Assembly (NCBI RefSeq): GCF_011043545.1
Contig: NZ_JAAKGP010000016.1
Location: 1-63,360, forward strand
Origin: Rhodobacter sp. SGA-6-6
Lineage (GTDB): Bacteria > Pseudomonadota > Alphaproteobacteria > Rhodobacterales > Rhodobacteraceae
Length of the DNA: 63,360 nt
Reading direction: 5' to 3'
Shown: piece after piece, positions 42,415 through 62,261 of the stretch
Layout of the letters: the number at the start of each line of letters is the position of its first letter
How positions within the stretch are numbered: the first letter of the stretch is position 1
The notes under the pieces: generated by a model
Databases searched by the model: none
What the model was told of the DNA's origin: nothing
What the model saw: only the letters and a program-made list of their open reading frames with translations
Translations under genes and position numbers: made by a program

Positions 42415-44586
42415 TCAGACCGTGAAAATGCCAGTTGGCGTCCCCGACCATGAAATGCGGAGAGCTTTTTTCGCCCGGGTCGCAGCGACATGCAGGAGGG
42501 ACCGGTACTGCATGATAATGTCCTCCTTATCTGCCGGATCCACGGCGGCCCGGAGCGCACCCGGTGGCGGGAAGGCCGCCTCGGACAGGAAGGGGATCGC
42601 CACGGCGAAGAACTCGAGCCCCTTCGCCCGGTGCATCGTGGTGATCCGAATCCCCGGAACGGACCGGTCGTCCGCACCGGACTGGAGCATCACCGTCTCG
42701 ATACCGGCCGCGCGGAGCGCCGCCTGAACCCGGTCCGCGTCGGCGCGACGCGCGCACAGGACCCCGATGTCGGAGAGGCGGATCTGGTCGGGCGGCAGGG
42801 CCCGGACCCAGGCCACCAGCCCGTCCAGCTCCTCCGCCTCTGTCCGGCACCCGACCAGCTCGGGGGCGGCCCCGCGCATGAGGCTGACATAACCGCGTAG
42901 GGTATCCGTCCCTTCATCAAGATCGTCAACGCTGACCCCCTCGAGAACCGAGACCGCCCAGGCCCGGATCTCCTGCGTGGTCCGGTAGTTCAGGCGGAGG
43001 CGCTTCGAGCGGCCGCGCACGTTGATCCCGCAGGCGGACATGGCGGCCCGCCGCCCATAGATCCGCTGATGCGCGTCGCCCACGATGAAGAGGGAGTTCC
43101 GGTCCCCCGCCGGGGTCTCGGGCATGATCGCGCGGATCAGCCGGAACGCCTGTTCGCCCATGTCCTGCGCCTCATCGACGATGACCGCGCTGTAGGGCAG
43201 GTTCGGCGCTTCGGAGGTCAGGATCTCGGTCGCCTCGCGGTAAGCGTCGTCAGGCTCCGCGAGCCCTTCGCTGATCAGCCGGGCCCGGTAATCGGCGAAG
43301 ATGTCCCACAGCACCGCCCGCTTCTTGCGGTCGAGAGGGGTGCCCCGGCCGGCCCGGGACGCCTTCAGGTATCCCTTCTGATCGGTCAGCCCCTTCGCCT
43401 GGACGATCTGCGCCCATTCCGCGCGAACGAACGGCTCAGACAGCCCCTCGGGCAGCTCGTGATCATCGAAGACCTCCTTCCACACCTGGTCCAGCCGGTC
43501 CCGCGCCTCGCCGAAGAAGGCGACCTCGCGGGCGAAGCTCTTGCGCTTGAGGAACTGAGAGACCCAGCGGTCGAGGTTGATCACCTCGATCCGGGGCGGG
43601 CGGGCGTCCAGATGGTCAGGGCACAGGGTCCGGAGGTTCGCCTCGATGTCATGCGCGAGGCTGGTCGTGAAGGTGGTCAGAAGGACCCGCTGGCCGGATC
43701 GGGTCGGATCGTTTTTGATCTGGTCTGCAAGGTGCTTGGCCCGGTGCATCGCGACGACAGTCTTGCCGGTACCAGCCCCGCCCCGGACCAGAACCGGCCC
43801 GTTGTAGTCCCGGTAGGCGATCTTGCGCTGTTCGGGGTGCAGGAACACGCGCCAGCCCTCAAGTCCCTCCTCGAAAACGCGGCGCAGCTCCTCCTCGCTT
43901 TCGGGAATGAAGATGGTCTGGCGGCTCTGCTCGGTCTCGATCAGCTTTCCGAAGGTCAGCTCCGCGGCGGGCTGCTGCGGTTCCGCGTCCGGTTCCGCGC
44001 CGACCCCGGTCAGGGACTGGATTTCCTCATCCGCATAACCGGCCGCGACCGCGTAAAGGATCTGATAGGTGAGCGGATCGAACCGGTCCTCCGCGCCTTC
44101 CAGCGCCTCGATCGTGGGGATCTGACGAACGGCCGTCAGCTCCTCCTCCGGCACGCCGAGGGCGCGCAGCCTTGCATCCGTCACCTCGTCGAAGAGGCGA
44201 GGAGCGTAGGTATCCGGCGTCGCCACCGGTTCGACAACCGCGTCCACCTCCTCAATCACCCGGATCCGGTTCGTTTCCGGGTCGAGCTTGACCCGGCGCC
44301 CTGCCGCCCAGCGGTAGGCCTTGTCGTGCTCGTTGACATGCACGAACATGATGTCGCGGCCGACCTCGAAGGCGATGGCCCGATACCCCTGGTCGACCCG
44401 CATGGACTTGATCGAGCTGTCCCTCGATCCTTCCACCGTTTCCAGGTTCAGCCCATTCGCGGACGGGTCCGACATATACTTGGTCATCAGGTCCATGAAC
44501 CGGAGCGCAACCCGGTCCGGCAGTTTCCGCAGGCTCTTCATGCAGCCGATGTCGTAGGAGACCCGCTTGGTCATTGTGTCTGTCAT
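42415..44586 (-). CDS. UvrD-family SF1 helicase with N-terminal RelE-like domain
   Basis: A 723-residue fusion. Residues about 5-95 (LPDRVALRFMDLMTKYMSDP, then SSIKSMRVDQGYRAIAFEVGRDIMFVHVNEHDKAYRWA) have the RelE/ParE toxin-fold pattern. Residues 240-723 are a UvrD/PcrA-type helicase: Walker A RGGAGTGKTVVAMHR near 267, VDEAQDMGEQAF near 468, GDAHQRIYGRR, LRLNYRTTQEIR, TMHRAKGLEF near 648 and VAATRAK at the end. It is translated by four-base overlap (ATGA) after the giant helicase gene and is the last gene of the defence-like operon. Confidence 0.85.
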   Translation of the reverse strand: MTDTMTKRVSYDIGCMKSLRKLPDRVALRFMDLMTKYMSDPSANGLNLETVEGSRDSSIKSMRVDQGYRAIAFEVGRDIMFVHVNEHDKAYRWAAGRRVKLDPETNRIRVIEEVDAVVEPVATPDTYAPRLFDEVTDARLRALGVPEEELTAVRQIPTIEALEGAEDRFDPLTYQILYAVAAGYADEEIQSLTGVGAEPDAEPQQPAAELTFGKLIETEQSRQTIFIPESEEELRRVFEEGLEGWRVFLHPEQRKIAYRDYNGPVLVRGGAGTGKTVVAMHRAKHLADQIKNDPTRSGQRVLLTTFTTSLAHDIEANLRTLCPDHLDARPPRIEVINLDRWVSQFLKRKSFAREVAFFGEARDRLDQVWKEVFDDHELPEGLSEPFVRAEWAQIVQAKGLTDQKGYLKASRAGRGTPLDRKKRAVLWDIFADYRARLISEGLAEPDDAYREATEILTSEAPNLPYSAVIVDEAQDMGEQAFRLIRAIMPETPAGDRNSLFIVGDAHQRIYGRRAAMSACGINVRGRSKRLRLNYRTTQEIRAWAVSVLEGVSVDDLDEGTDTLRGYVSLMRGAAPELVGCRTEAEELDGLVAWVRALPPDQIRLSDIGVLCARRADADRVQAALRAAGIETVMLQSGADDRSVPGIRITTMHRAKGLEFFAVAIPFLSEAAFPPPGALRAAVDPADKEDIIMQYRSLLHVAATRAKKALRISWSGTPTGIFTV

Positions 44587-47500
44587 GTCCGTGCCTCCTG
44601 AAGGGCCGTGATAATTCGCGAGACCGTCTCCCCGATCTGATCGGTTTCCGGATCAAACGGGATCAGCGCCCAGCCGACCCCCTCAAGGGATGTTTCGGCA
44701 ACCGCGACGCGGGTATCCGACCATCCGAATTCCATAGCGCCCACCACGCGTCCGCCCGCAACCAGATCGTCCCCGAAGTGGTCCGGCCCGGGCGCCTCGG
44801 CCGCGATCAACGCGTCAATCAACGGGTGGAACGCGTCGTCGCACAGCGCCCGCGCCTCTTCCCAAGCGGCCAAGCCGGGGCCCTGGTCCCCCTGGTCGAC
44901 GGGTTCCACCATGTCGGGTGGGGCCAACGTGTCCAGCCCGTCGAACTCGACATGAAGACCACGCACGCCCTGGAACAGGTTCACGATCCGCCAGAGCCCG
45001 CGCCAGGCCTCCGTGTAGAGGGTTTTCGCGGCCGGAACCTCGCCCGGATCGGGCAGGACCGAACGCAGGAGAAGACGAAGGTCGCGATCCGATTGGGCCC
45101 ATTCGGTGGGCGAGATCTTCTCACAGGCCAGATAGAGATCGAGCGCCCCGACCCCGACCTGTTCCACCGCCTGTGTACCGGAGAGAAACAGGCGCCCCGC
45201 CTCTGAAAGAGCCGCCTGCCGGGGAAGCTGGTCGATGGGGCGACCGCCCTTCACGAGGCCCCGGATCAGGACGGACCGGATCACCGCATCCCCGTCCGCA
45301 TCCCCGTCCAGAAGGCGCCTCAGTGCATCGAGCGTGCTGATGGTCTGAAGCGTCCGGACCGCCTCTGCATGTGGGGCGAGCAGCGGATGCGCCAGCGCAC
45401 GCCCAAGGGGCCCGGTCATCTGCGCCCCGAGGGCGGTTTCAGAGAGCGGGTTCAGGTAGCCCTTGTCCTCCGGGTCAAGATCGCGCCAGGACAGGGTCCA
45501 GACCCGCACCTGCCCGGACCGGATCATCAACATCCGGTCCAACAGGTCCTGGGCGACCGTACCCGCGTGGTACTCGATCCCGTCCATTTCGATGACGATC
45601 GGTAGGCCGCCGCTGCGGCCAACCGGGGTGAGCAGGAAGTCGACACGCTTGCGGGGCAGGCCCCGGAACCGCGCGTCAATCTGCACCTGCGGCTCGATCG
45701 TCCAGAGGCGCGGCGCGTCCGGCCGACCCGCGCGCAGGACGAACCCACGCCGTCCACCCGGCAGCACCTGCGGCGTCAGCGCCCCGTCTCCATAGAAGCC
45801 GGAAAGGGCGCGCAGCAACCGCTTCTCCAGCACGCTCTCGACCAGCGCGCCCCGAATTGACGCGTCGATCCCGGTCTCGGTCTGGGTCAGGCTGTCCCAT
45901 TTCTCGAGGATCGCCTCCATCATCTGCCGCGCCCGGTCCCGATCTGGCTCGCCGGGCCCGAACTGTGACCGGTAGGGCTTCACACAGCGGAAGCACCCGT
46001 TCCGGTCCGGCTCCTGGTTGCAGGGGCAGTCCCGGAGCGCCTCCGCCGCGCGGCTGACAACCTCGCGCATCGTGTTCGGATGTTCCGCGATCTGACGCAG
46101 ATAGCCTGATCCGCCCGGCACGGAATCGTAGAGGTAAAGGCTGCGAACCGTGGTCATTCCGTTCAGCTGCGCCTGGAAGATGGTGGACCGGATATGGTCG
46201 ACCTTCCCCGCGAAGTGACGCCGCATCCCGAGGTTGATCGCCGCGACGAAGCTTTTCAGGTCATCATCATCCGCGTCCCCGACCACCGGGATCACGATCC
46301 GGATCGCCTCCGTGTCGAACTTTCGCATCAGGAACACGCCGGTTTCCCACTGCTCGCGAAGCAGGTCCTCATCCCGCATGACAAGACAGTTCGGCGGGTG
46401 CGTTCCGCGATCGTCCTCGCCGCGTGGGGGACCCTGAAGCGACCCGCAGTGGCGACAGATCCGGAACGGCTGTGCGGGCCGACGCTCGCCCGCGATCCGC
46501 GGCCCGGGGAGGGTGGACTTCGTCCCGAAGTTGAAGTCGCGGAACGTGCAACTGGGCAGGAATTCAAACCCGAACGGGGCACCGTTCTCCCGGCTGGTGA
46601 ACCAGGAGGCGGCGATGTCTTCCGGTCCATGGAAGGGCATGAGAACCCGGTCGAACTGACGCTGGTCCCGCTGATCCCCGTCCCGGATCGCCGCCTTTTC
46701 CTCGCTGTCGATCGCGATGACAGACTTGAGCTGGACCACGTCATGCGCGGAGCCGCTATCCGACCACATCTCGTCCCCGCATTGCGGGCAGGTGCGGGTC
46801 TCGGCGCCCTCAATCCGGTGCGCGACATGCGAACAGGCTGGGCAAAAGGTCCAGCGGGCCAAATCTTCCTTGCCGATCTCGATCCGGTCGATCTGCACCT
46901 GGCGCCCGTTGGCGTAGAAGAACTGGCCCGGCGCGAATTCCGACAGGGCGGAGCTGGCGGGCCGGGAGTATTCGACGTGCAGAAGCCCGTCCTCGTCCCG
47001 TGCTGTCGCGCCATCGTTGCGCCGCGACAGGATCGACGTCAGCTTCACCCCTTCTTCGGGGAAGGCGTAGTTCGGCAAGATTCCCTTGTCGGTCAGAAAC
47101 TTGATCACCGGCACATCGTCGATCCCGCTTCGGATCAGACGGTTGATCTCGGTCCGGTCCCGGGTCAGGTCCTGTTCACGACGCTCATATTCTTCATCGG
47201 TCAGCTCGGCCCGGCGCTTCTTGAGCCGACCAAGTTCCTTGGTCGCTTCCTCGCGCTTTTCCACCAGCCGGGCCCGTTCGGTGGCAGCCCCGTCGAAGGC
47301 CTCCCCGACGCGCCAGCCGATCGATTTCGGGTCCGTTCCGGTCAGGTAAGATCGGATCCGGTCGGCCAGATCCGTCCGGTCCTGCACCTCTTGCGGCAGG
47401 CCAGACAGGAACCGGTCTGCCAGTTCCGGCCCGGTTTCGCGAACCAGTTCAAGCCACTCAACCGGGAACCCTTCGGTCGCGCCGGAGGCCCGGCGTTTCA

Positions 47501-50500
47501 GCACGTCCCGGACCTTCCCGTAATCCCCGCTCTCCTTCGTGGCCGCGACATAGGCGTCGAGGGTATAGGCGGTCACCTGACGAAGCAGCACCTCTTCGGC
47601 CGCGAGGAACACGCCCGGCGGCCGGACCTGGCCTGCCAGCATCGGGGTTGGGTCTTCCCAGAACTGGAGGTCATGGGCACGCGCATTCGCCAGCACAATG
47701 TTCAGCGCGTTCCCGTCGCGCCGCCCGCTCCGCCCCATCCGCTGGACGTAATTCGCCTCCTCCGGGGGGACCGAGCTCAGAAGCAGGGTGGACAGGTCCC
47801 CGATATCGATCCCCATCTCCAGGGTCGGAGTGGCCGAGATCAGGTTCGGGGCCCAGCGGGTTTCGCTCTTGATGAACCCGGTCTCGATCCGCAGCCGCTC
47901 ATCCGTTTCGAGGATGCCGGTATGTTCTCGCGCCACCACCCGGTGGTTTCGGTCCGAGCGAAGGGCGCGGCGCAGGGCGGGCCGGTCAGCCTGCTCAACC
48001 GCTGCTAGGTGCCCGTCACAACCGATCCGCGTACAGGGGGAGCCGATCAGGACACCTGCGTTTTCCGAAAGCCCGGTCTCGCGCCGACCGCACAAGTCGC
48101 AGCACAGCCCGATCGTCGCGGTGGAGACGGTGACCCGTTCCGGCACGAGAAGCCAGGCATGCCGGTTCTGCCCCTCGGGCCCGTTCACGCGTCGGACGAT
48201 GTCGTCGGCCTCAAGTCGGCGCAGGAGGAGCGGATAGATCGCGTCAGGGTCCGCGCCGTAGCGCAGGTCGGACGGTCCGATCAGCCGGAACAGCCAGTCC
48301 CGGTACCAGCTCGCGGGGCCGGTCCGGGTGATCTTCTCAAACCCGGTCGGGGCGGCGCCGAGGGTCACCGGGATCGGCGCGAGGCCCCGCCGGCTGTCCG
48401 GGCTTGGCAGGGAACCGGTCTTCCCCACGCCCACCTGGATGGCGGCCGCGTACCAGTTCAGCCCGTAGTTCCCTTTCCCGTTCGCGATCGCGCTCTCGAG
48501 ATAGGGGTGCGCCACGGACCCCTGCCGCCGCATCCGCTGCGTCACCCCGGCGAGGAGCCGGGTCAGAAGGGCCGGGTCGAACTCCGGCGCGCCCGGCAGA
48601 TCGTTTCGCAGCTCCCGTGCCAGCCGCTCCGCGGACAGGCGCAGCAGATCCGTGGGCACATCCGCCGCCGCCATGCCGTTCAATTCAAGCGTGTGGTTGA
48701 AATGCGCCCTGTAGCTCAGGTCGACGAAATACTCCCAGCCGAGCCGGATCCGGATATGGTCGAGAAACACCGGGTCGGTGATGGTGGCCCCGCTTTCGAC
48801 CAGCTCCCGGTAGCGCCGCCGCCAGGTCAACTCCTTCGGGATGAACAGCGCTGTGAACCCGTCCGGGCCGAGGTCGTTCAACTGGGCGCGCGGGACGTCC
48901 TCGATCACCTCTTTCAGGCTCATCGCGCCCGTTTCCGCGGACCGAAGCGCCCCGTAGAGTGCCTTCTGGTAGACCGACAGTGCGTTCCGGGTTTCGGCCA
49001 CCGCCGCCCGGTGCGCCGCGTCCTGAACCGAATCCGAGAACATCAGGAAGCGCGGTTTTGCCTCGGGGCTCTCTTCGTTCTGTTCGGAGGTGTAAAGGGT
49101 ACCGGTGATGCCGGTCGTCAAACGCGCCGCCCGCATCCCGAAGAGGAGAAGCCCGCGCGCCTGCCCGCAGGCAGGGCAGGTCCGGTCGATCCGTCCGTTC
49201 GCGTCGGTCGGGTTGTACAACCAGACCTGTGAGGCCGGTCCCGGGCCGAGATCCTTGTGATCGGCCGGGGTGAACTCGACCGTTTCCGCGTTCAGGACCC
49301 CCTTCACGATCTGACCACCGGCGCCGCTGGCCGGGACCATCCGGTCGATCGACTCGTGATAGATGAGCCGGATCCGGTCCGCCCCGTTCTCGTCGAAGAA
49401 CTCCTGGTAGAGCTGCTCCAGGTCCGCATGTAGCGACTTCGACCGGGCGTCCTGCCGTCCGAGATGCGCGGTCGCCCCGCACCGGTTGCAGTTCACGACC
49501 GGAAGGGCCCGGCAAAGCTGGTCCCTTTCCAGGTCCATTTCATGGAAAAGGTCGATCTGTGAACGGACCCCGCCCGCCTCGAGTCGCGGCAGGGTTGTCA
49601 CCATCCGGGCCATCTCCCGGATCCAGAGCTGGAGCCTGACGTTGAATAGAGGGCGCGGGCTCTCAGCCGACCCGGACCGGGCCCAGGCGACCAGCCCTAC
49701 GACCAGCTCGGCGAGCGCAGTCAGGTCTGCCTCGGGCCAGTCACGAAGGACCCGGACTTGTCCCAGCCCAGCCGCAATCGCCTCAAGCGAAGCGGGTCCC
49801 TTGTGCTCGGCGATGATCTTCAGGGTCCGCTGACACAGGTGATGCTGGACGAGCCGGTCCCCGAGTGCGATCCGCCAAGCCGGGTCCGCTGGATCACCTG
49901 TGTCCAGAAAGGCGAGGTCGGGGTCGGTCCGATCCGGGAACAGACAGACAGCGAGCCGTCGCGCGGCACCCGGCTGGTCCATTTCCGTCGCCGCTCTCAA
50001 GGCGCCGTGGATATCGGCGGGATCCGGCCGGTCCAGATACTCCGCGTCGCCGAACACCTCGTTGGGGGATTTCCGGGTCTCCCGGACCACCGCGCCCGCG
50101 TCGAACGGCTCGCCGAAGATTGTCTCGGCGTATTGGCGCAAGTCCGTCGCCGCCTCTTCCCCGGAGCCAAGCGTTGCCGACGACCCCACGCAGATCAGGT
50201 GTCCTTCCGGGGTGTTCAGCCGGTACTTCAGGCGGCGCAGCAGCAGGGCCAGGTCCGCCCCCTGCGCCCCGTCGAAGGTGTGCATCTCGTCGACCACCAG
50301 AAACCGGAGCGTTTCCGGGTCGTTCTGCGCCCAGAGCGGCTTGTCCCGGCCGCGTAGAAGCAGGTAATCCAACATCTTGTAGTTCGTGAGCAGGATGTCC
50401 GGCGGGTTCTTCCGCATCGTCTCGCGATGCGTGATCACGCTGTCCTCGGTCACCTCATGCGCCGGGTTCTGCGGCTCCGCGTCCGCATAGATCCCGGCCC

Positions 50501-50984: not shown

Positions 50985-51010
50985 ACTGTCATCACTCCGC
51001 CAAACCTGCA

Positions 51011-51859
51011 CTAACGGGCATGTTGTTCAATCCTTCCCGCAGCCCGTGCGATCGCAGAATGACTTACAAATTCAATGGTTTTCTCTTTCAAATAACCATT
51101 CAGATATTCAGCCGAGTTCGACTGCAAGCCAAATCGCTTGCAGACGATGTATGTCACCGCCTCTGCTTCGAACTCCCGTACATCCAATTGAGGGGGCCGC
51201 CGATCCGGCCACTTCTTCCCGTTCCCGCCCAGATGGCCGAGGTAGACATGGGCCAGTTCGTGGACGAGCGTTGTGAATTGCGCGTTCGTATTGAGGTTCG
51301 AGTTGACCCGGACGACCCAGCCCGGTCCTATGGGTTTACCCTTGGCCGTCGGATCCACCGGAACCGCGCGGGCATCACCGGCAAGGGTAGCGGCGAGGCT
51401 CACCGATTTCACGTCGATCCGGTCCTCCTTCAGGGCGCGGCGCGCTACGCGGTCGATGAGGCCATCCCGAACCTCGACGGGCTCGCCGAAAACCTTGTCC
51501 AGAAGGGCGTCGTCGACCGGGTCCCCGGTTGTATCCGCCAGTTCATAGGCGCAGCGCACCGGGCAGAACGGCCACAGGACGACGATCGGGATCGAAGCCG
51601 GTTTCACCGTCCGTCCAATCTCCCGCCATTTGTCGGGGAACGCAATGTAGCGCGCGCCCGGGCGCTGGAGGTCGGCCAGCATCAGGTTGAACGGGGCCAT
51701 GTGGGTTTGACCCGCGATCCTGTCGAACAGGTCCACCCACGGCGGGCGGGCGCCTGGTTCGCTGGCGGCGCGGTAAAGCTCGTCGATCCGGTCCGCCGTA
51801 TCGCGCAGGATCGCGTCGATCCCTTCCTCGAAGGGAAGTTCGCCCTGCCGCCCCGTCAT
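51011..51859 (-). CDS. ArdC/IrrE-like zinc metallopeptidase
   Basis: A 282-residue protein. The C-terminal half has the zinc motif LVHELAHVYLGHLGG near residues 198-212 and the third ligand region REFEAEAVTYIVCKRFGL. These are typical of ImmA/IrrE (COG2856) peptidases. The N-terminal half (PPWVDLFDRIAGQ, then APFNLMLADLQRPGARYIAFPDKWREIGRTVKPASIPIVVLWP) resembles the DNA-binding domain of ArdC anti-restriction proteins. The start overlaps the methyltransferase stop by four bases, so it is translated with it. It could regulate the operon by cleaving a repressor or protect DNA during transfer. Confidence 0.8.
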   Translation of the reverse strand: MTGRQGELPFEEGIDAILRDTADRIDELYRAASEPGARPPWVDLFDRIAGQTHMAPFNLMLADLQRPGARYIAFPDKWREIGRTVKPASIPIVVLWPFCPVRCAYELADTTGDPVDDALLDKVFGEPVEVRDGLIDRVARRALKEDRIDVKSVSLAATLAGDARAVPVDPTAKGKPIGPGWVVRVNSNLNTNAQFTTLVHELAHVYLGHLGGNGKKWPDRRPPQLDVREFEAEAVTYIVCKRFGLQSNSAEYLNGYLKEKTIEFVSHSAIARAAGRIEQHAR

Positions 51860-54800
51860 TCAGCGGCCTCTTCGGATTTCAGCCGCTCGAAATGGGCCCA
51901 GGCGCGGCGGTAGTCCTCGATCCGGTCGCACCGGGTGAAGGGGCCGACGAAGTGGCGGGTGACGGTGCGGGGGCCGCCGGGCATCGTGTCGTCGATGGCG
52001 GTGCAGGTCAGTTCCGTCGGGTTGTCGGCGAGGATACGCTCCCAGGCGGCGCGGCCGGGGCTTTTGCCGCGGTCGTCGAGCCAGCCGACGCCGGGCAGGC
52101 CCTTGGAGCAGGTCCAGACGATCCGGCCCTTCTGGTCATACCAGGTGCCCGCCTCGTTCTCCTGAAGGACCGGGAAGTAGATCCGATAGATCTCGATCAA
52201 CTGGTCGAGTGTCAGGCCGAGCGCCTGCGCGACCAGCACGTCAATCTCGACAAGCGCCATGCGGCGGGCGAATTCGGTCCGGAGGCCTGCGGTTCGGTCC
52301 CAAGTGACCGGGCCTTCGACCGGACCTTCGAGGTGGAGTCGGGGGTCAGGGGAGGACCACGGGAGGACATCAAGTGTGGTAGCGTGGCAGTTCCAGAGGT
52401 CGGCGTAGGCCGAGGTGATACAGGCGAGTCGCAGGGAGCGGTGCCTGGCGGTATCCTCCAGTTCTGGAAACGGCCATCGGCCTATATCAGAGGCAAAAAG
52501 ATCACCGCGTCCGTTTGCCTTGACCAAATAGTCGAACGGGATCGAACAAGCGAACGAGTGTATTGCGAGAGAAACTGAAACGTCCGCACAAGCGATGCTT
52601 TCAACCTTGTGTATGTGCGCCGCGCCCGGCGGGATCATCGCACCGATCAAGCTGCGCTCTCCGTTTAGAGCAATCATGTTCCGAAACGCCACGCGATAGA
52701 AATCGGCGTGGCCTTTCGTCGGGTCCCAGCGGCACTGGGTCATCCGGCTCCGGTAATCTTTCATCTCCAGCGCCGGACCGTAATTCGTGCGCGGCAGATA
52801 GTCTTCAGGCGCGGTGGTCAGGTCGACAACGAGGTAATCCGCATTTGTCCGTGAGATCGCCTTGGGCGTCTTGTAAATCGGGTTCCCGACGTGAAACAGC
52901 GGTCCCTGAAGTATCATCTGATCCGCTGCTCGGAAGCCAGTCTCACGCCGGATTGTCCCGTCTTTTTGGGCAGCCGTTTCATGCCAGTGGGGCGACTGTT
53001 GCCACAACGGAATTTCAATTATCCGCTCTCCAGCACCCGCGCTCACCGAACGCTCGATCCGTGGGATCGCGGCGTCGAGTTTTGGAAACCGCGCCATCTG
53101 GCGGAAGACGTCCAGGGTTCGGGCCGAATAAGGCTGAATGAACCGGGCCTCTTCAACCGCGACCGTCTCATCTTCAGAAAGGGCATGGATCACCGCCAGC
53201 GCATCGCGGTCGATCCGCATCACGCGGTCACGATGGCCGCGGGTGTCCCAGTTCCCTTCTGAATTCTTGATACTGGGGACCGGGCCGATCCCGTCCTGAT
53301 CCGCATACGAATCTTCGACCTGTGCGGCTGTGAAGGCGTAAGTGAATTTCTCGAAATCTGGCGCGCGCTGCTCGCCGCGATAGATGTTCAGGCTGAATCT
53401 GACGTTGTGATCAACCTCCATGAAGTTCCGCGATTTCATCCGGTTGATGAATTCGAAATGCTTCGCGATCCGCGCATACCAGTGCCGCCGGAACACCCCC
53501 GACTTCGGGTCGCCCAGATGCCCGTCCTGATGGATCAGCGCCGCATAACCCTGCTGCGCGACCAACCGGAACGACAGGTCGATGAAGCAGCGATAGAGGT
53601 TGTTCGACCCGCCCCCGGCAAAGGGGTTCATCACCTCGGACGAAGTTACCTCCATCGCCCCCCGAGTCGACACGAAATCCTGTAGGAACGCCTCGACGGC
53701 CGGAACCGTCCTCCCCTCGCGCCGCACGGGCGGGGCCTTAGGCAGCGCCTCGGGCAGGACCTTCTTCGCGTCCGACGCCGACAGCCCCGCATGAAGCGGG
53801 TCGATATCCGCCAACACCAGCCCCTCGTTCCACGAGGGCTTGGCCCAGGGCGGGTTTCCGACGATGACGTCAAACCCGCCGCGCGCCTTCATCACGTCGG
53901 CGAAGATCAGGTCGAAATGCACGAAGCGCTCGCGCTCGGCCACCTCGACCGCCGTCTTCAGCCAGTCGAAATTCTCGATCAGCGCCTCGACATTCGTTTC
54001 CCGGAACAGCCCGTCCTGCCGCTTGGCGGCGGCCTTGAACAGGTCGCGGGCGGGGGCGTCGGGTTCCAGCAGGTCGAGGAAGTCCGGGGCCGGATCGGCG
54101 AACTCCGACACGCTCGGCGCGGCCAGCGATCCGTCAGCGGTGAACCCGCCCTCAAGGATCATCGCCATCCCCTGAAGGAACTCCGCCCGGCCGGGCAGAA
54201 GGTCCGCCTTGTCCAGCGGCCAGAGCCAGAGGGCGCACCACGCGTCCATCGCTGTTTTCAGCCGCTTGTAGGGGAGCGTGTTGGTCGCGTGGTCAGCCCC
54301 GGTCAGGTGGGCGTTCAGGCGAGCCTTTTCGTGGAAGTCTAGCCGCTTGTTCCCCGGCATGACCTTGTTCGGCCAGAGCGTGATCTCGTCATTCGCGGCT
54401 GCGCGCGTCTTGGCGAGGTCCTCGGCCACCTGCTCGAACAGCGCCTCGGCGACCCGGCTGAGCTTCTGGACCAGCTTGATCTCGTGGGGTTCGAGCTTCT
54501 TGAAGAAGCCGTCCTTGCGCCACGCCTTGATCTGATCCTGCGCGGATTTCGCGAAGGGGGCGATCGACTTGTCCTTGTCGAAGTTCGCCATGTCCTTGGC
54601 GGGGAGGAGCCACTGCCAGACGTGCCCGTCCGGCAGGCGTTTGCGCCAGCCGATCTCATCGGGCTTCCCGTTGAACCACAGGTCGCCCTGCGCCTTGGCG
54701 CTGAGAAGCGCGGGGGCATAGGCGGCCCGGCGCGCGCCGATCAGGGAGTTCCCGGCGTGAAGCTGGTCCCCGAACCAGGGCGAGAACTCGCTCCCGTGCA

Positions 54801-56808
54801 GGCTGTTCAGCCACAGCGAGATCGCCCCCAGTTCGACGGCGATCGGGTTGAGGTCTACCCCGAAGCAGTTCCGGTCTGCGATGTAGGCCCGGACCCGCTG
54901 CTTCTCGAGGACGATGTCCTCCTGCGGGATGGTCCGGCCCGTCGCCTTCTGTTTCCGCTCGAGGTAGAGGTCGGCCAGCTGGTTCGTGGTCTCCACGAGG
55001 AAGGCCGCAGAGCCCATCGCGGGTTCGAGGATCTTCAGGTCCAGAAGCTGATCGGCGGTCAGGTCCCGGCACCGCTCCATCAGCGCGTGCTTGACCAGCA
55101 ACCGGGCGAGGGGTTCGGGCGTGTAGTAGGAGGCGGACTTCTCCCGGTCCCGGCCGGCGAGGCGGTAGATGAAGGTCCCCTTTTCATAGACGAGCGCCTC
55201 GGACCCGTTGAAGACGATCTCTTCCGGGGCGAATTCGTTGATCCGGCTGCGGGGGACGAACCAGCTGGGCGCCAGCTTGTCCACCTTATCACGGCGGAAC
55301 GCGTCCTCCTGTTCGGCCTCTTCCTCACCGAACAGGTCCTCCTCGCCGTCCTCTTCCGGTTCGGTGGCTTCGGCCTCCTCCCCGTCCTCGGCCGCGTCAT
55401 TCGACCGGCCCTTCCGGGGTTTCAGCTCGATGAGGTCGGTCTTGGCGACCACTCCGGTGAACGAAATCAGGGTCTCATAGACCGCGCCCAACTGGCCGAT
55501 CCCAAGCTTCGCGTAAGATATCCGGCCCGTGCTCTTGCCGGTGGACCGGAGCGACAGCAGGCGGATCACCTGTTGAACTGCCTCGTTCCGCAGCCGCAGC
55601 CCGTTCAGGAGTGGCGTGCTCTCCGGGTCGAGCAGGGAAACCTTCACGGCCGGTAGGCGAAGACCGGACCCCCGTTCCTCATCGGCGAGGTCGAGCCCAG
55701 TGTAGAGGAGGTCGAGGGTCCGCTGAAGGCTTTCCCAGAGGAACGTCCCCTCCCGGTCCGCCGTGGTCCGGAGCGGAACGGATTCCAGTTCACGCAGCGC
55801 CTCAAGCGAATATCCGGTCGCGTAGATCGGGTTCCGCATGTCGAGCAGGTTCAGACGGGGGTTCGCCTCCGCGTAGAACAGGAACAACAGCCGGTACATG
55901 TAACGCAGGCATTCGCGCGACAATTCCGGCCCGTCGATCCAGACCCCGCGCCGGGCCGGGTCCGGGAAGCTGGACGGGTACTTCCCGCCGGTGACCGCAA
56001 TCACCTCCTGGCCGAGCAGCTCGATCGCGTCCCGGACGGTTCGCTTCAGGGAGGTCGTGACTGCGTTTGCGTTCCGCTGCGCCTCCTCCTCGAGCCGATC
56101 CGAGATCGGCGCCCCCTGATCCGGGACGCGCGCCTCTCGGGAGATCAGGCAGGCCATCACGGTGAGCGTGTCCCGGTCCGCCCGGGCGAAGATTTCTTGA
56201 AGGTCGAACCGGAGGACGGACCGGGCCGGCCATTTCCTCTTGTCGATCAGCACGATCTGCGACAGGCCGAGGACAAGCACGTGACGAGGGCCGTCGGACA
56301 GCTCGAACACCCCCTCGGCGAGGACGGACTCGATGGTGCGATCCAGTAGGGCCGCTTCGCGCAGGTCCGGCGGGAATTGATCTTCGGTGAAGCAGGCGCC
56401 CAGTGGGTCCGATGCCTCATCCTCAGGGGCCGGGATCGGCGCCTCGATTACCCACAGCGCGTCACGCCCGCTCGCATCCGGGGCGCGGGACACAAGCGGG
56501 ATTACCGGCGCCCCGTCGAGAGCCGTGTAGGCCCCCTCGCGCCGCCACACGTAGCCGAGGGCGGTCAGCACGTCGTGGTGCGCGTCCCGGACCAGTTCGG
56601 CGCGCCGGGACCGATCCGAACTGTTGCGCACCTGGCGCAGCGCCTCGACTGTCGGGCCGGCGACGCGGGCCAGCCGCTCAACCGGATGGGCGGCCCGGTC
56701 AAGACCGGCCCAGCGGGCGGTGATGTCCTGAAGCTCCTCTTTCAGCACGTCCGAAAGGGTCCCGGATGGGAAGAACTCGGCTTCGTTTTCGATCCCGATC
56801 AGGTCCAT
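51856..56808 (-). CDS. large N6-adenine DNA methyltransferase (DrmMI/PglX-like)
   Basis: A 1650-residue SAM-dependent adenine methyltransferase. An N-terminal region of about 550 residues precedes the catalytic domain: SYYTPEPLARLLVKHAL, motif I ILEPAMGSAAFLVE near 593-606, and motif IV VIVGNPPWAKPSW near 980-992. A target-recognition region follows (to about residue 1500), and the end is helical. The acidic stretch EEDGEEDLFGEEEAEQED near 495 is a flexible linker. This architecture fits Eco57I-like, BREX PglX and DISARM class 1 DrmMI enzymes. ATG 56808 is preferred to 56844 because GGGGTGA lies before it and it follows the helicase stop by four bases. Confidence 0.9.
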   Translation of the reverse strand: MDLIGIENEAEFFPSGTLSDVLKEELQDITARWAGLDRAAHPVERLARVAGPTVEALRQVRNSSDRSRRAELVRDAHHDVLTALGYVWRREGAYTALDGAPVIPLVSRAPDASGRDALWVIEAPIPAPEDEASDPLGACFTEDQFPPDLREAALLDRTIESVLAEGVFELSDGPRHVLVLGLSQIVLIDKRKWPARSVLRFDLQEIFARADRDTLTVMACLISREARVPDQGAPISDRLEEEAQRNANAVTTSLKRTVRDAIELLGQEVIAVTGGKYPSSFPDPARRGVWIDGPELSRECLRYMYRLLFLFYAEANPRLNLLDMRNPIYATGYSLEALRELESVPLRTTADREGTFLWESLQRTLDLLYTGLDLADEERGSGLRLPAVKVSLLDPESTPLLNGLRLRNEAVQQVIRLLSLRSTGKSTGRISYAKLGIGQLGAVYETLISFTGVVAKTDLIELKPRKGRSNDAAEDGEEAEATEPEEDGEEDLFGEEEAEQEDAFRRDKVDKLAPSWFVPRSRINEFAPEEIVFNGSEALVYEKGTFIYRLAGRDREKSASYYTPEPLARLLVKHALMERCRDLTADQLLDLKILEPAMGSAAFLVETTNQLADLYLERKQKATGRTIPQEDIVLEKQRVRAYIADRNCFGVDLNPIAVELGAISLWLNSLHGSEFSPWFGDQLHAGNSLIGARRAAYAPALLSAKAQGDLWFNGKPDEIGWRKRLPDGHVWQWLLPAKDMANFDKDKSIAPFAKSAQDQIKAWRKDGFFKKLEPHEIKLVQKLSRVAEALFEQVAEDLAKTRAAANDEITLWPNKVMPGNKRLDFHEKARLNAHLTGADHATNTLPYKRLKTAMDAWCALWLWPLDKADLLPGRAEFLQGMAMILEGGFTADGSLAAPSVSEFADPAPDFLDLLEPDAPARDLFKAAAKRQDGLFRETNVEALIENFDWLKTAVEVAERERFVHFDLIFADVMKARGGFDVIVGNPPWAKPSWNEGLVLADIDPLHAGLSASDAKKVLPEALPKAPPVRREGRTVPAVEAFLQDFVSTRGAMEVTSSEVMNPFAGGGSNNLYRCFIDLSFRLVAQQGYAALIHQDGHLGDPKSGVFRRHWYARIAKHFEFINRMKSRNFMEVDHNVRFSLNIYRGEQRAPDFEKFTYAFTAAQVEDSYADQDGIGPVPSIKNSEGNWDTRGHRDRVMRIDRDALAVIHALSEDETVAVEEARFIQPYSARTLDVFRQMARFPKLDAAIPRIERSVSAGAGERIIEIPLWQQSPHWHETAAQKDGTIRRETGFRAADQMILQGPLFHVGNPIYKTPKAISRTNADYLVVDLTTAPEDYLPRTNYGPALEMKDYRSRMTQCRWDPTKGHADFYRVAFRNMIALNGERSLIGAMIPPGAAHIHKVESIACADVSVSLAIHSFACSIPFDYLVKANGRGDLFASDIGRWPFPELEDTARHRSLRLACITSAYADLWNCHATTLDVLPWSSPDPRLHLEGPVEGPVTWDRTAGLRTEFARRMALVEIDVLVAQALGLTLDQLIEIYRIYFPVLQENEAGTWYDQKGRIVWTCSKGLPGVGWLDDRGKSPGRAAWERILADNPTELTCTAIDDTMPGGPRTVTRHFVGPFTRCDRIEDYRRAWAHFERLKSEEAAE

Positions 56809-56812
56809 TCGG

Positions 56813-59764
56813 TCACCCCAAAAACACAGCTTTGACGTCGACATGCGGGTTCGGGTCCGGAATCATCTTCCGGGTCCGCTCGAACCAGTCTGTCCAGTCA
56901 TGGAACAGCTTCTCGATCTCCTGTTCCCGCTTTCGGCGGATCGTCAGGCGTCTCTTCTCAAACGGGCTGAGCCCCTCATCAGTCCCGGGCACCTCGCCGA
57001 GATCAAGCGTAAGCTGGGCTCGGAACCGCGTTTCCAGAGCTGACAGCCGGTCAAGAACGGCGTCGAGGTCGCGCTGGATGTCCGCTTCTCGCGCCTTCCG
57101 CAGATCGACCAGGTGCGTCTGGAACCGGTCCACCGCGGCCGGGATCACCGCCTGCGCCGCCGAGAGGTCCTCCAGGGGGCGGCTCGGGGTGTCCCCGGCG
57201 AGCCGGGTCCGTTCCAGAAATGCGCCCACCTCCTCGATCCGCACGGTCCCGTCCGCCGACCGGATCACCACGGCCCACCGGTCCACGACCGGGGCCCCGT
57301 TTGCGTTCGGGATCGCACCGTGAAGGACCACGGCCACCTCCCCCGCGGGCAGGCGTCCCTGTAGCGACGCTACCGGGGCGGCGTGCTCCGGGAAGAAGGT
57401 GCTGGCCTGGTCTGCGAACCATTGCAGGATCGGGTGCCCGTCCCACAGGAATTGAACGGTCGGCCAAGCTCGCTCCTGCGCCTTCGCGTCGTTGATCGCC
57501 TGGTTGATCACTCCGGATTGGTCGGTCAACTCGATCCGGCCCCCGGGGCCGACCGCTTCCTCCGGCATGAACCGGCTATCAACCGCCCCTTCGCTCGCGT
57601 AACCGAACCCGTCGCGCGCCCGCATGTCGTCCGGGATCGGGAGCCGGATAACCCGGTCCTCCGGGAAGATCCCGGGCTGCTCCGGGAAGATGCGCCCCTC
57701 CGACCGGGAGAGCCGCTCAATCATCGCCCGGGCGTAGCTGAACGTATCCGGGTAGAGGCGCGGCGGGGCCTGATCCGTCGGGGGTGCCGCGTCGGCTGGA
57801 GCCGGGGCCGCGTAATCCCCGAAGAGGGCCGCGAACTCATCGTCGACCGACATGTGGGTGACGGCCTCCGCGGCTCTGGCGTCCATCTGGCGCTCGAACG
57901 CCTCCGCGCCGATGCCGGTGGCGACCGCCTCAGCGACCACAGCCTCTTCCCCGTCCGCGTCCCCCGCGCCGAGGAACACGGCCGGGTCACCAACGCCGGC
58001 CTGGGCCGCCTCGTCCTTTGCGACCAGCTTCTCGAGGACCCACATCTGCCGCACCTTCGGATGCGTACTCTCGCCGACGAAGTAGCTGATCTGCGGGGGC
58101 CGGTCCTGACCGTAGCGGTCGATACGGCCGTTGCGCTGCTGGAATCTCAACAGGGACCAGGGGAGATCGAAATGGATCAGCCGGTGGCACTGGAAGTGGA
58201 GGTTGAGCCCCTCGGACGCCATGTCGGAGGCGATCAGGATCCGGATCGGTGATCGCTCCTGACCGAACGCCTCAATCACCTCCTGGGTCCGAACGTCCGC
58301 CTCGACGCTTCCCCCGTCCACCCGTGCCACCTGGTCGGCCGAAAGACCCAGGTCCTCGCGCAGCCGGTCCGCGAGCCAGGACACTGTCGCGATCCGTTCC
58401 GAAAAGATGACCAGCCGGTCCCGGGCGGCGCGCCCGGTCCAGTTCAACTGGCGCAGCAGGCGCAGTAGCTCCTGATACTTGCTGAACGCGCCCGTATCGA
58501 TCGCCGCCACGTGGTCCGCCAGCGCCCGTAGCCGGTCCCGGTCAGCTGGGGTGCCGCGGGCGGTCCCGTTTTCGATACCCCGGATCCGGCGTGAGAGCGT
58601 CTCAAAGCAAGCGGCTGGGCTGGAGAAGATCGCCTTGGCGATCGTGGTCCGGAACAGGTCGATCGCGCGTCCCCGGGTCTGTTCGTCATCAAGATCGAGG
58701 TGCAGGTCCGCGATCGCCTGATAGGCCACCTCTTCCTGAGGGCTGAGCGGGAAGCGGCGCGGGAACAGCTGCCGTTTCGGGACCTCTCGGCCGATATCGG
58801 CGACCACCTCCGGCGACGAGCGGAACCGGCGGATGACAAGATCCTCGATGTCAGACCGGTGCAGCCGGGTCGGATCCGGAACCCGGGTTGGGTCGAGCAT
58901 CTTGATAAGACTGGCGAAGCTTTCCTGCGATCCATCATGCGGGGTCGCGGTCAGCAGGAGCAGGGAGTCGGTGCGGCGAGACAGGAGCTGCGCCAGCTCC
59001 GCCCTCTGCGAGTTCGACCCGGCGACCGACTTCCGTTCGGCGGTATTATGCGCCTCGTCGATGATGATGAGGTCCCAGTAGGAATGTTTCAGCGCGTCCC
59101 GGATTTGGTTGTCCCGTTTCAGGGTGTCGATCGAGACGATGGACCGGTCGAACTGATCGAACACGTTGTAATGAGCCGGGATCTTGTTCCGCATCCTCCG
59201 GATTGCGGCGCTGTCGAGCCGGGAAAGCGGGATCGAGAACCGGGTCCAGAACTCCTTCTGGAACTGGGTCAGCATGGCCCGGGTCGTGACCACCAGGATC
59301 CGATCCGCTCGACCGCGCAGAGCGAGCTCCGAGGTGATCAGGCCCGCCTCCAAGGTCTTCCCGAGGCCAACGTCATCCGCGATCAGGAGCCGAACCCGGT
59401 CCTGCGCCAGCGCCCGCTCCACCGGGAGATGCTGAAAGGTCAGATCGTCAATCGCGGCCCGGCCCAGCGTCAGGGGGCGACGCGTTGTCGTCGGTGTCGC
59501 CCGGAACGCGGCCGCGAGGTGCAGCTTCGTGTCGATCAGACCGGGGGACGTGTCCGAGACGAGCCTGACCGCCGCGGGGTCAAGGACGCGCGCCCCTTTC
59601 TCGAGATCCCAGACGAACCGGGCCTCCTTGTCACGAACCAGACCGTTCAGGCCCCGACAGTGGACCTCCCGGAATCCGCGCTTCAGCGTCGAGGTGCCCA
59701 GCACCTTCCAGGTGGCGGAGCGGAGGCTGATGACGGACCCGGGGGTGGGGATTGCTGAACTCAT
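56813..59764 (-). CDS. SNF2-family helicase (DrmD-like)
   Basis: A 983-residue Swi2/Snf2 ATPase. Walker A is DDVGLGKTLEAGLI near residues 130-143, motif II is LIIIDEAHNTAER near 240, and ATPHDGS follows. The C-terminal helicase part has IASDMASEGLNLHFQCHRLIHFDLPWSLLRFQQRNGRIDRYGQ near 505-550. The last 400 residues are long and charged, with no recognised nuclease. DISARM class 1 begins with the same kind of helicase, DrmD. ATG 59764 precedes the conserved MSSAIPTPGSVISLRSATWKVLG start. Its stop lies four bases before the methyltransferase start. Confidence 0.88.
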   Translation of the reverse strand: MSSAIPTPGSVISLRSATWKVLGTSTLKRGFREVHCRGLNGLVRDKEARFVWDLEKGARVLDPAAVRLVSDTSPGLIDTKLHLAAAFRATPTTTRRPLTLGRAAIDDLTFQHLPVERALAQDRVRLLIADDVGLGKTLEAGLITSELALRGRADRILVVTTRAMLTQFQKEFWTRFSIPLSRLDSAAIRRMRNKIPAHYNVFDQFDRSIVSIDTLKRDNQIRDALKHSYWDLIIIDEAHNTAERKSVAGSNSQRAELAQLLSRRTDSLLLLTATPHDGSQESFASLIKMLDPTRVPDPTRLHRSDIEDLVIRRFRSSPEVVADIGREVPKRQLFPRRFPLSPQEEVAYQAIADLHLDLDDEQTRGRAIDLFRTTIAKAIFSSPAACFETLSRRIRGIENGTARGTPADRDRLRALADHVAAIDTGAFSKYQELLRLLRQLNWTGRAARDRLVIFSERIATVSWLADRLREDLGLSADQVARVDGGSVEADVRTQEVIEAFGQERSPIRILIASDMASEGLNLHFQCHRLIHFDLPWSLLRFQQRNGRIDRYGQDRPPQISYFVGESTHPKVRQMWVLEKLVAKDEAAQAGVGDPAVFLGAGDADGEEAVVAEAVATGIGAEAFERQMDARAAEAVTHMSVDDEFAALFGDYAAPAPADAAPPTDQAPPRLYPDTFSYARAMIERLSRSEGRIFPEQPGIFPEDRVIRLPIPDDMRARDGFGYASEGAVDSRFMPEEAVGPGGRIELTDQSGVINQAINDAKAQERAWPTVQFLWDGHPILQWFADQASTFFPEHAAPVASLQGRLPAGEVAVVLHGAIPNANGAPVVDRWAVVIRSADGTVRIEEVGAFLERTRLAGDTPSRPLEDLSAAQAVIPAAVDRFQTHLVDLRKAREADIQRDLDAVLDRLSALETRFRAQLTLDLGEVPGTDEGLSPFEKRRLTIRRKREQEIEKLFHDWTDWFERTRKMIPDPNPHVDVKAVFLG

Positions 59765-59837
59765 TTGAGACGCACTCTTTTCAATCCAAACCTGGCGAGC
59801 CGTAAGTGTTCGACAGCAGACGAGAGAACCATTTTTC

Positions 59838-60698
59838 TCATGGCGCTGTCGCCTCCAGTGTCTCTCGGTTAAGCAGCACGATTTGCTGATCTTGGGGCGG
59901 TCGCGCGCTTGGATCGGTATCCAGTCCAAGCCGTCGCAATGCGTAATAGAGAAGGGCGCGCCTGACCTTGATCGCCGCCTTTCCCCCATCCATGCCGTAG
60001 TCGAGCGCAATGACCTTTGCCTGTGTCGGGGAAAGATCAGGATGCGGGCCTATCTCGAGGACCACGTTATCATTCCAATCCGCGTCCGCCGAAGGCACCG
60101 CGGCGCTCTCAGTGCACCCACGAATTTCGATCATTCGAGAGAGTAGGAAATCCTTGAAGACTTCGTCGGAGAGACAATAGGCGCGCGCATGCCACCGGAA
60201 GCCATCAAAAGCGATGGCATGGGGCGCAATCCAGCGCCAACGTGGCTCAGGGTTCGACAAGGACTGATATTTGACCTCGATCGCCTCCGAACGCCGGATA
60301 GCCCCGAGCACTGACCGGAGCGTGACAGGGTCGACGCCTCGCACGGGCGTGGGCGAGGCTGCGTAGGGCGGCAAGTCGGCTATCCAGGAGTCCTCTCTGT
60401 CGAGGATACCGTCAGCGACAGACCGCAGCTGGGCCAGATACCTGCTTGCGTCAGGTTCTAGAAACTGTGGCTTGAACCCTGGCCCGCGAACGTAGGTCCG
60501 GGCGCTTTTGTCGTAGACCATGTTGTCTGGTGCGAAGCCGATATAGCGATTAAGGTCCATTGAGGCCTGGTTCACCGAAACCCCGAATTGATCCATCAGA
60601 TCAATGCGGTTCACGTGCCCCTCCCAGAACAGGCGGAACTCGATGAACTCGAGACGTTGCTCGACTCCCCAGCGTAGATCCGACTTGTCGTTCGACAC
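59838..60698 (-). CDS. WYL-domain transcriptional regulator (BrxR/CapW-like)
   Basis: A 286-residue regulator. The N-terminal winged helix is in RLEFIEFRLFWEGHVNRIDLMDQFGVSVNQASMDLNRYI. The WYL core follows (AIEVKYQSLS, WIAPHAIAFDGFRWHARAYCLSDEVFKDFLLSRM), and a C-terminal WCX-like part is present (DLSPTQAKVIALDYGM, RRALLYYALRRLGL). GTG 60698 has GGGGGAAG upstream and leaves two inverted repeats outside the coding region; TTG 60746 is the alternative. WYL regulators of this layout control BREX and CBASS defence operons, so it likely represses the adjacent helicase operon, which starts 73 bases downstream. Confidence 0.85.
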   Translation of the reverse strand: MSNDKSDLRWGVEQRLEFIEFRLFWEGHVNRIDLMDQFGVSVNQASMDLNRYIGFAPDNMVYDKSARTYVRGPGFKPQFLEPDASRYLAQLRSVADGILDREDSWIADLPPYAASPTPVRGVDPVTLRSVLGAIRRSEAIEVKYQSLSNPEPRWRWIAPHAIAFDGFRWHARAYCLSDEVFKDFLLSRMIEIRGCTESAAVPSADADWNDNVVLEIGPHPDLSPTQAKVIALDYGMDGGKAAIKVRRALLYYALRRLGLDTDPSARPPQDQQIVLLNRETLEATAP

Positions 60699-60862: not shown

Positions 60863-61123
60863 TCAGTCGACGTACCCACGCCGCTTCTTCACCGCTGCGA
60901 GCTTCATCAAAGCCGTGATGGCCTTGCCTTCATCAGGATGGGTCTCGACCATCATCTGCCCCCGAAACCCGATCCGGCCCCATTCGCGCACGAGGCTGGC
61001 GCGACCGAAGAGGTCACTTTGCACGCTCAGCCGATAGAAGCGACGCATGTTGCGCGCCGGATCAATCCGGCGCATCTGCACGTCGGTCGGGAAGACATCA
61101 AGCTGGATCGGACTATGGTACAT
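60863..61123 (-). CDS. WGR-domain protein
   Basis: An 86-residue protein that is almost wholly a WGR domain: RFYRLSVQSDLFGRASLVREWGRIGFRGQ, with the eponymous Trp-Gly-Arg, then a helix (DEGKAITALMKLAAVKKRRGY). WGR domains are thought to bind nucleic acid. Small single-domain versions are common on rhizobial and Rhodobacterales plasmids near DUF2493 genes, as here. Confidence 0.82.
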   Translation of the reverse strand: MYHSPIQLDVFPTDVQMRRIDPARNMRRFYRLSVQSDLFGRASLVREWGRIGFRGQMMVETHPDEGKAITALMKLAAVKKRRGYVD

Positions 61124-62141: not shown

Positions 62142-62261
62142 CGGTTTTTGCCTCCGGGCCTGTCTCGTCCGCGCGTCATCCCGCGCGGCCTTCATGGGCT
62201 GCGAAAGCCGTCACGGGGGACGCCCCTTCACCCCCTTTCGGGGCCGGAACGCATGTGGAGG

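Follow-up and report, generated by a model that had tools for sequence, protein, structure and literature searches.

The 63,360-base contig NZ_JAAKGP010000016.1 of Rhodobacter sp. SGA-6-6 (hereafter the window, which is the entire contig in a genome of 67 contigs and 4.29 Mb) carries six minus-strand genes that an earlier note, made from the sequence alone, had read as a defence operon with a new combination of genes, related to DISARM and Druantia. Two questions are raised by this locus: which defence system it represents, and what a gene for an ArdC-like metalloprotease is doing in the middle of it. The answer to the first is a system already known, ARMADA type II, with its four genes and their order (PMC12458937). 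What is new here is the ArdC-like gene at the seam between armB and armC, the occurrence of other genes in that same seam, and the natural exchange of a region of ArmB. The best explanation of the locus as a whole, to which we would assign a probability of roughly 0.5, is a plasmid-borne ARMADA type II operon equipped with an ArdC-like safety catch.

Identity of the operon

ARMADA type II was described in a preprint by Bell et al. (2025; PMC12458937), whose main text lists a BrxHII-like helicase (ArmA), a PglX-like methyltransferase (ArmB), a YprA helicase (ArmC) and a GajB-like helicase with an N-terminal RelE domain (ArmD), encoded in that order. The type II strains of the preprint are Escherichia coli NCTC 12900 and ATCC 8739, and the E. 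coli system was reported there to give non-abortive protection against phages that requires all four Arm proteins. The corresponding window proteins align with those of ATCC 8739 at near full length: ArmA with 37.5% identity over 991 columns, ArmB with 35.2% over 1745 columns, ArmC with 33.3% over 1905 columns (reaching residue 1845 of 2142) and ArmD with 38.7% over 721 columns (from window residue 6 on). The gene order A-B-C-D is kept, with one gene added between B and C, and all eight mutated residues named in section 6 of the preprint (PMC12458937) are conserved in the window, namely K136 and D236 of ArmA, the NPPW and GxG motifs of ArmB, K117 and D241 of ArmC (in the numbering of the mechanical open reading frame, ORF), and K275 and D471 of ArmD. 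Judged by these alignments, the locus is almost certainly an ARMADA type II operon; the assignment to type II follows from the presence of ArmD and from the gene order, the quick ArmC tree having comprised ARMADA-like sequences and one DruE, with the type I clade not represented. By the same comparison, the RelE-UvrD gene is the core component ArmD and not an embedded extra. The window differs from the E. coli operons in its sequence (33-39% identity), in having a WYL-domain regulator in front and the ArdC-like gene at the armB/armC seam, and in lying on a contig with conjugation genes, whereas 510 of the 532 places where armD was found in E. coli are chromosomal and 22 are on plasmids.

The novelty of the gene combination as a whole therefore falls, since four of the six genes are those of ARMADA type II in the published order (PMC12458937). 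Of the two proteins that had been regarded as embedded in the operon, only the ArdC-like peptidase is an addition, and the main text of the preprint makes no mention of it. In the profile searches, the best 25 PADLOC and NCBIfam matches of each protein do not include the ARMADA name (NCBIfam was run on all proteins except ArmB, Pfam on the five operon proteins other than ArmA). ArmA matches DrmD in PADLOC (4e-101) and DISARM_DrmD in NCBIfam with 353.5 bits, under the cut-off of 610; ArmB matches REase_MTase_IIG with 618 bits and DrmMI with 205 bits; the giant helicase and the last gene match DruE and NERD+UvrD/GajB in part. These partial matches are what a separate new system would have in its favour, and we find that reading scarcely credible: a named and experimentally tested system has these four genes in identical order (PMC12458937), the direct comparison amounts to nearly full-length orthology, and the reading survives only for the added ArdC-like gene.

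The earlier note was right that the operon has parts of DISARM class 1 and of Druantia and is distinct from both. Like DISARM class 1, the window has a DrmD-family SNF2 helicase and a PglX/DrmMI-like methyltransferase, but the helicase and the MZB/DUF1998 part, which in DISARM are the separate proteins DrmA and DrmB, form one Druantia-like chain, as had been noted, with DEAD, Helicase_C and MrfA Zn-binding domains found in ArmC by Pfam. No gene for the phospholipase D (PLD) DrmC was seen either, Pfam having detected no PLD domain in the five operon proteins searched with it, and the DrmD equivalog score fails as given above. With Druantia III the window has in common parts of the YprA helicase core of ArmC and DruE; the match of ArmC to E. 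coli DruE, taken from the ATCC 8739 locus, is nevertheless limited to two segments (33.0% over 285 columns and 23.2% over 711 columns), the C-terminus of ArmC is unlike that of DruE, and E. coli DruH is the best match of no window ORF (limits E 1e-6 and 60 bits). Since these defining features fail, the operon is neither DISARM class 1 nor Druantia III. The RelE-like domain of window ArmD, called from the sequence by the earlier note, is unscored by Pfam and is recognized by alignment with relatives. A search of the PDB with ArmB gave no match at 0.001.

ArmC of type II is characterized in the preprint (PMC12458937) as a YprA-family helicase with a C-terminal Vsr-type nuclease. We found a pattern LE...DG..H...D...R in all 11 ARMADA ArmC rows printed, and not in the row of E. 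coli DruE. Pfam gave no nuclease match for the ArmC C-termini of the window, E. coli and Nostoc. An AlphaFold2 model of a 223-residue C-terminal piece (predicted local distance difference test, pLDDT, 64.7) gave 204 matches in a Foldseek search against the PDB, none at E <= 0.001, and EndoMS, a Pyrococcus repair endonuclease, Can2 and BamHI appear at weak ranks mixed with unrelated proteins. The nuclease assignment thus stays the preprint's own, and the C-terminus is treated here as a candidate.

Other genomes share the gene order, as the earlier claim of novelty had required. Matches to the window's ArmC occur in 26 of 292 genomes of the order at 1e-20, of near full length only in G000, G255 and G258, with a fragment in G171; the remaining matches are partial, as expected of Druantia-like helicases. 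In the phylum, 8 of 398 genomes have an ArmC match at 1e-60. The fragment in G171 (L088, 836-1654) is about 90% identical to the window's armC, has no neighbouring arm genes and lies near a contig end; it is perhaps a relic. The RelE-UvrD protein was tried as a marker of ARMADA and rejected: 17 of 385 genomes of the class match at 1e-60, and armB and armC are adjacent only in G000 and G472 (several of the stretches fetched for these 17 genomes are short or ended by a contig edge). The ArmD-like RelE-UvrD proteins of L057 and L071-L085, from the same class, are without armB or armC in the fetched stretches and may belong to other systems; an ArmA-like SNF2 helicase is present in L071 and L078, and a DruE-like ORF lies beside the ArmD-like protein in L082. 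On a Cylindrospermopsis plasmid (L091, 12001-28674) the ARMADA genes are permuted to C-D-A-B, as against the type II order termed 'strict' in the preprint (PMC12458937), and on a Tsukamurella plasmid (L045, 1-4413 and 4449-20380) a helicase gene and a DUF1998 gene immediately precede an ARMADA-like operon.

The putative recognition region of ArmB

Several pairs of near-identical operons differ sharply in ArmB, chiefly between about residues 1000 and 1550, with smaller dips elsewhere in some pairs. Expressed as identity over the first 1,000 residues, the putative recognition region (1001-1500) and the end of the protein, the values are 98, 31 and 88% for L034 versus L035; 95.4, 48.6 and 92.0% for Nostoc versus Aulosira; 99.4, 74.3 and 98.5% for E. 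coli ATCC 8739 versus L043; 96.9, 62.5 and 95.4% for ATCC 8739 versus L092; and 90, 47 and 88% for the window versus L048, the ArmC proteins of which are 94% identical. The number of mismatches in the densest 400 columns is far above that of all 300 shuffles in five of six pairs; the clustering is weak for the window and L040 (54 versus a shuffle maximum of 48). Similar recognition regions also occur in different lineages: between the window and L035 this region is 81% identical, against 78% for ArmC and 85% for the ArmB core.

The E. coli genomes give the same picture at a larger scale. The 5' part of armB is found in 515 of 5,426 genomes, always with at least 80% coverage and in 511 with at least 95% identity. 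The recognition region of ATCC 8739 is covered at 80% in only 5 of the 518 E. coli genomes with any match, in a megablast search from which strongly diverged stretches drop out, and at least six coverage patterns of this region are seen in the 40 rows listed. Many of the E. coli genomes with ARMADA are clonal, so that these counts are not independent.

BREX, whose genes include PglZ and BrxC, provides the comparison for ArmB through its methyltransferase PglX. In PglX, the methylation motif is decided by the C-terminal recognition domain (PMC11341690). ArmB would resemble it as a methyltransferase with a C-terminal recognition region; it differs in being encoded together with a helicase array, and in that wholesale replacement of the region is seen between natural ArmB alleles. 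Because the C-terminal region is replaced so sharply between near-identical operons, we consider it highly probable that it sets an exchangeable DNA specificity. In the main text of the ARMADA preprint (PMC12458937) the string 'methylat' is absent, and the single use of 'target recognition' refers to zinc modules of the helicase. The ArmB replacements, in operons that otherwise hardly differ, open the question of methylation as a self mark to direct testing.

The ArdC-like gene between armB and armC

The added gene has 849 bases and encodes a protein of 282 residues. We aligned 13 sequences, five of them from the armB/armC seam (the window, L032, L035, L037 and L038) and eight from elsewhere, and the residues of an HExxH...E zinc site (H200, E201, H204, E229 and E233) are invariant in all 13, the window included. 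Pfam M78 is matched by all 13 at E <= 0.01; for the window protein the match (E 5e-4, 20.3 bits) is under the cut-off of 22, so that the earlier reading as an ArdC/IrrE peptidase holds through alignment with relatives and not by the Pfam score. The profile of the 13 sequences matched 14 sequences of solved structures at E <= 1, the best being the protease part only of ArdC (6i89, E 8.3e-4), followed by IrrE (5.6e-3), with CapP in fourth place (0.19). A narrower profile of eight sequences gave no match in the PDB at E <= 1, and an AlphaFold2 model made from an alignment of eight close sequences reached a pLDDT of 37.8 and was not used for a fold search. The protein can thus be called ArdC-like through its relatives, with weak support for the N-terminal half. 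The gene is under purifying selection: its ratio of nonsynonymous to synonymous substitution rates (dN/dS) is 0.05-0.12 in 15 comparisons among 6 loci, similar to the 0.08-0.15 of armC; six comparisons with L038 are saturated or nearly so.

We found the gene at the armB/armC seam of the window and of nine other loci (L032-L038, L039 and L048). Some of these ten are not independent, since L032 does not differ from L048 in either ArmB or ArmC, L039 all but duplicates the window, and L033 and L035 belong to one metagenome-assembled genome. Relatives of the protein at E <= 1e-8 were found in 3 of 385 genomes of the class, the window's own included; the other two have no ARMADA gene in the fetched stretches. 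A scan of viral contigs gave relatives in none of 13 stretches, and a single weak match came from a phage collection. Among the matches listed in open-licence papers to August 2026 (supplements excluded), none describes an ArdC-like gene within an operon of ARMADA; the main text of the preprint (PMC12458937) contains none of the terms ArdC, IrrE, M78, metallo and protease, with WYL only in a reference title, and in a 2026 survey of BREX-related systems, searched by term, there is no occurrence of ArdC, metallopeptidase, DUF1998 or DISARM.

Conjugation genes are present on the contig: at 3.4-13.2 kb those for VirB/TrbE, VirB8, TrbI, TrbL and a secretion ATPase, and at 34-38.9 kb those for a VirD4-type coupling protein, a relaxase and MobC. 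The operon is thus probably plasmid cargo and the contig a conjugative plasmid. Transfer genes are present also on the plasmid of L039, and the operon lies on a plasmid in pOT1-7 and in Martelella pMM259 too, with flanking genes that match those of the window. The window has no exact terminal repeat, so that a closed plasmid is not established.

A conjugative plasmid that carries a DNA-attacking system, and enters a naive cell as unmethylated single strands, would need some restraint on that system. We propose that ArmB would provide the self mark by methylating adenines at a site that its exchangeable C-terminal region determines, while unmarked incoming DNA would be engaged by the SNF2 motor ArmA together with ArmB and then be destroyed or blocked by the helicase ArmC, with its candidate C-terminal nuclease, and the RelE-UvrD protein ArmD, the cell surviving. 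The ArdC-like protein, by its family a single-stranded DNA (ssDNA)-binding protein and metalloprotease, might then act as a safety catch on the side of the plasmid: on entry of the plasmid, as an unmethylated single strand, into a new cell, the protein would shield that DNA or hold back ArmC for as long as ArmB has yet to mark both plasmid and host. Its gene lies precisely between the modification gene and the helicase-nuclease genes, and DruE, a relative of ArmC, is reported to load on 3' ssDNA (PMC13192584). The analogy is with ArdC of plasmid R388, described as binding ssDNA and as needed in recipients against HsdRMS restriction (PMC7213743). R388 ArdC is the best solved structure of the family profile and has in common with the window protein a putative two-part layout and the plasmid setting; differences are the weakness of the similarity, the unscored N-terminal domain, and the location of the gene in one operon with a defence system. 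By this analogy we suggest, tentatively, that the ArdC-like protein restrains ARMADA for the carrier plasmid. If so, this would be a case of a defence operon that retains an anti-defence protein, with a bearing on how plasmids carry DNA-attacking systems into cells whose DNA is unmarked.

Several observations weigh against this proposal. The N-terminal ssDNA-binding domain of ArdC (ArdcN, PF08401) is matched by 4 of the 13 aligned sequences and not by the window protein. The zinc site is invariant although the antirestriction activity of R388 ArdC is reported to be independent of its protease activity (PMC7213743), so that a proteolytic role fits at least as well. The gene is dispensable, being absent from the operons of a Martelella plasmid (L040), a Gemmobacter plasmid (L046) and L101, and operons without it persist on similar plasmids. 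Any link between the gene and plasmids is tentative, since most of its carriers (L032-L038) are contigs of unassigned replicon; the contigs of L101 and L070, both without the gene, measure 1.65 Mb and 0.46 Mb. Finally, according to the preprint (PMC12458937), mutation of the GxG motif of ArmB lowered defence only in part, so that more than methylation may be involved.

The invariant zinc site (13 of 13) also speaks for a serious rival, in which the protein would act in signalling, as a protease like IrrE or CapP that, upon damage or infection, cleaves a repressor or an Arm subunit and so switches the system on. The presence of IrrE and CapP among the structures matched by the family profile, the purifying selection on the gene and the WYL regulator at the head of the operon agree with it. 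The neighbours of the gene, however, are armB and armC with no repressor gene, and the WYL gene occurs also in L040 and L046, which lack the protease, so that it is not a protease-dependent partner. We regard a signal protease as possible but less likely. Dependence of the ArdC-like gene on the WYL gene is ruled out by the same two loci. The idea that the ArdC-like gene tracks the recognition allele of ArmB was likewise rejected, since L032 and L048 have ArdC-like proteins 95% identical to the window's alongside a recognition region of 47% identity.

The other serious rival holds that the armB/armC seam is a tolerated landing place for passengers that make use of translational coupling, and that the ArdC-like gene serves the plasmid and is unrelated to ARMADA. 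Seams were measured in 27 loci, of which L044 and L045 (split armC) and the permuted L091 were excluded; among the remaining 24 operons, nine have an ArdC-like gene at this seam, three have other genes and 12 have none, in a sample biased by the fact that a search for the ArdC-like protein yielded six of the nine. It speaks for a landing place that the seam also holds other genes: a 185-residue MoxR-like AAA fragment in Nostoc (L042), a DUF4258/MqsA-like pair with an Abi_C-like protein in L103 (9880-11338), and MqsA-like, VapB and UPF0175/DUF3368 genes in L104 (7825-9125). Since L103 and L104 are relatives, the independent insertions may be as few as three. ArdC/M78-like genes occur also outside the seam, as a distant homologue after armD on a Microvirga plasmid (L041, 17166-18281) and separate from ARMADA genes in the Cupriavidus stretch that was fetched (L047). 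A mere passenger is less easily reconciled with the presence of the gene at the seam in operons whose ArmC identity ranges from 100% to 56% (L038), with a dN/dS as low as that of armC, and with the absence of any gene at the other two seams, A/B (22 of 22 measured in collinear operons) and C/D (23 of 23). We think it rather unlikely. In E. coli, a query made of the end of armB and the start of armC is covered by at least 80% in 514 of 518 matching genomes; of the 60 rows listed, 59 show a single unbroken match at full or near-full length, and the remaining one covers 62%.

The Martelella operon L040 has intact arm genes and an ArmC 99.6% identical to the window's; in its seam the end of armB is separated by one base from the start of armC, and the flanking bases match the window. 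The DNA of the two is 99-100% identical from armC through the Fic gene, 96% in the bin of the seam and 74-99% across armA and armB, so that a recombination border probably lies near the armB/armC seam. In the quick ArmC tree the three operons without the gene (L040, L046 and L101) are nested among eight with it, which argues for losses or exchange of the gene and not for one recent gain. Exchange is suggested also by L033, the protease gene of which has a synonymous distance (dS) of 0.34 to the window, against 1.06 for armC. In a more general view, ARMADA type II would be a modular, restriction-like system with two exchangeable parts, a swappable ArmB recognition region that alters the DNA target and a single accessory slot at armB/armC, in which a dedicated protein stands between the genes for modification and destruction. 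In a group of alphaproteobacterial operons, several of which lie on plasmids, this would be an ArdC-like protease converted from an anti-defence tool of the plasmid into the safety catch of its own defence system. Taken in full, we hold this view to be doubtful.

Layout and surroundings of the operon

The positions of the genes and domains are collected in table 1. As the earlier note had it, the six genes lie head to tail on the minus strand, and every seam it gave is correct when the ORFs are read directly: a gap of 4 bases separates armA from armB, armB overlaps the ArdC-like gene by 4 bases (ATGA), a gap of 26 bases precedes armC, and armC overlaps armD by 4 bases (ATGA). Between the WYL gene and armA there is a gap of 73 bases. 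The ORFs are intact, at 282 to 2,142 codons, and another plasmid, that of L039, has the identical six-gene set at 94-100% protein identity, so that the operon is not a product of chance. Start codons were taken from annotated orthologues on the Haematobacter massiliensis plasmid pOT1-7, where the WYL orthologue has 861 bases; mechanical ORFs run longer at some 5' ends than the annotated starts.

Table 1. Positions in the window of the operon, its parts and its flanking genes.
Feature	Position	Strand	Basis
WYL-domain regulator, first gene of the operon	59838..60698	-	GTG start; Pfam WYL E 2e-10
ArmA, BrxHII/RapA-like SNF2 helicase, related to the DrmD family	56813..59764	-	orthology to E. coli ArmA
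ArmB, PglX-like/type IIG-like adenine methyltransferase	51856..56808	-	orthology to E. coli ArmB
Putative exchangeable target-recognition region of ArmB, residues 1001-1500 (mechanical ORF)	52345..53844	-	identity drop between near-identical operons
ArdC-like M78/gluzincin metalloprotease, accessory gene at the armB/armC seam	51011..51859	-	family profile to ArdC 6i89
HELAH zinc motif of the ArdC-like protease, residues 200-204	51248..51262	-	invariant in 13/13 aligned sequences
ArmC, YprA-family giant helicase	44583..50984	-	orthology to E. coli ArmC
MrfA Zn-binding (former DUF1998) domain of ArmC	45981..46241	-	Pfam PF09369 E 8e-11
Candidate C-terminal PD-(D/E)xK/Vsr-like nuclease of ArmC	45462..45836	-	conserved pattern LE...DG..H...D...R
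ArmD, RelE-like N-terminal domain and GajB-like UvrD helicase	42415..44586	-	UvrD domains in Pfam; orthology
Plasmid-backbone flank: WGR protein and YAcAr/SLOG protein	60863-61123 and 61209-62195	-	Pfam
Fic protein, the other conserved flank of the operon	41295..42395	+	Pfam DUF4172 and Fic

The flank with the WGR and SLOG genes is common to L039, L040 and L046, and the SLOG gene is found also in L034 and L035; the Fic protein on the other side is 100% identical in L039 and 99.7% identical in L040. Elsewhere on the contig, a plus-strand gene (15697-24150) encodes a protein of 2,817 residues with glycosyl hydrolase 94 domains recognized by Pfam, which we take to be of the cyclic beta-glucan synthase kind.

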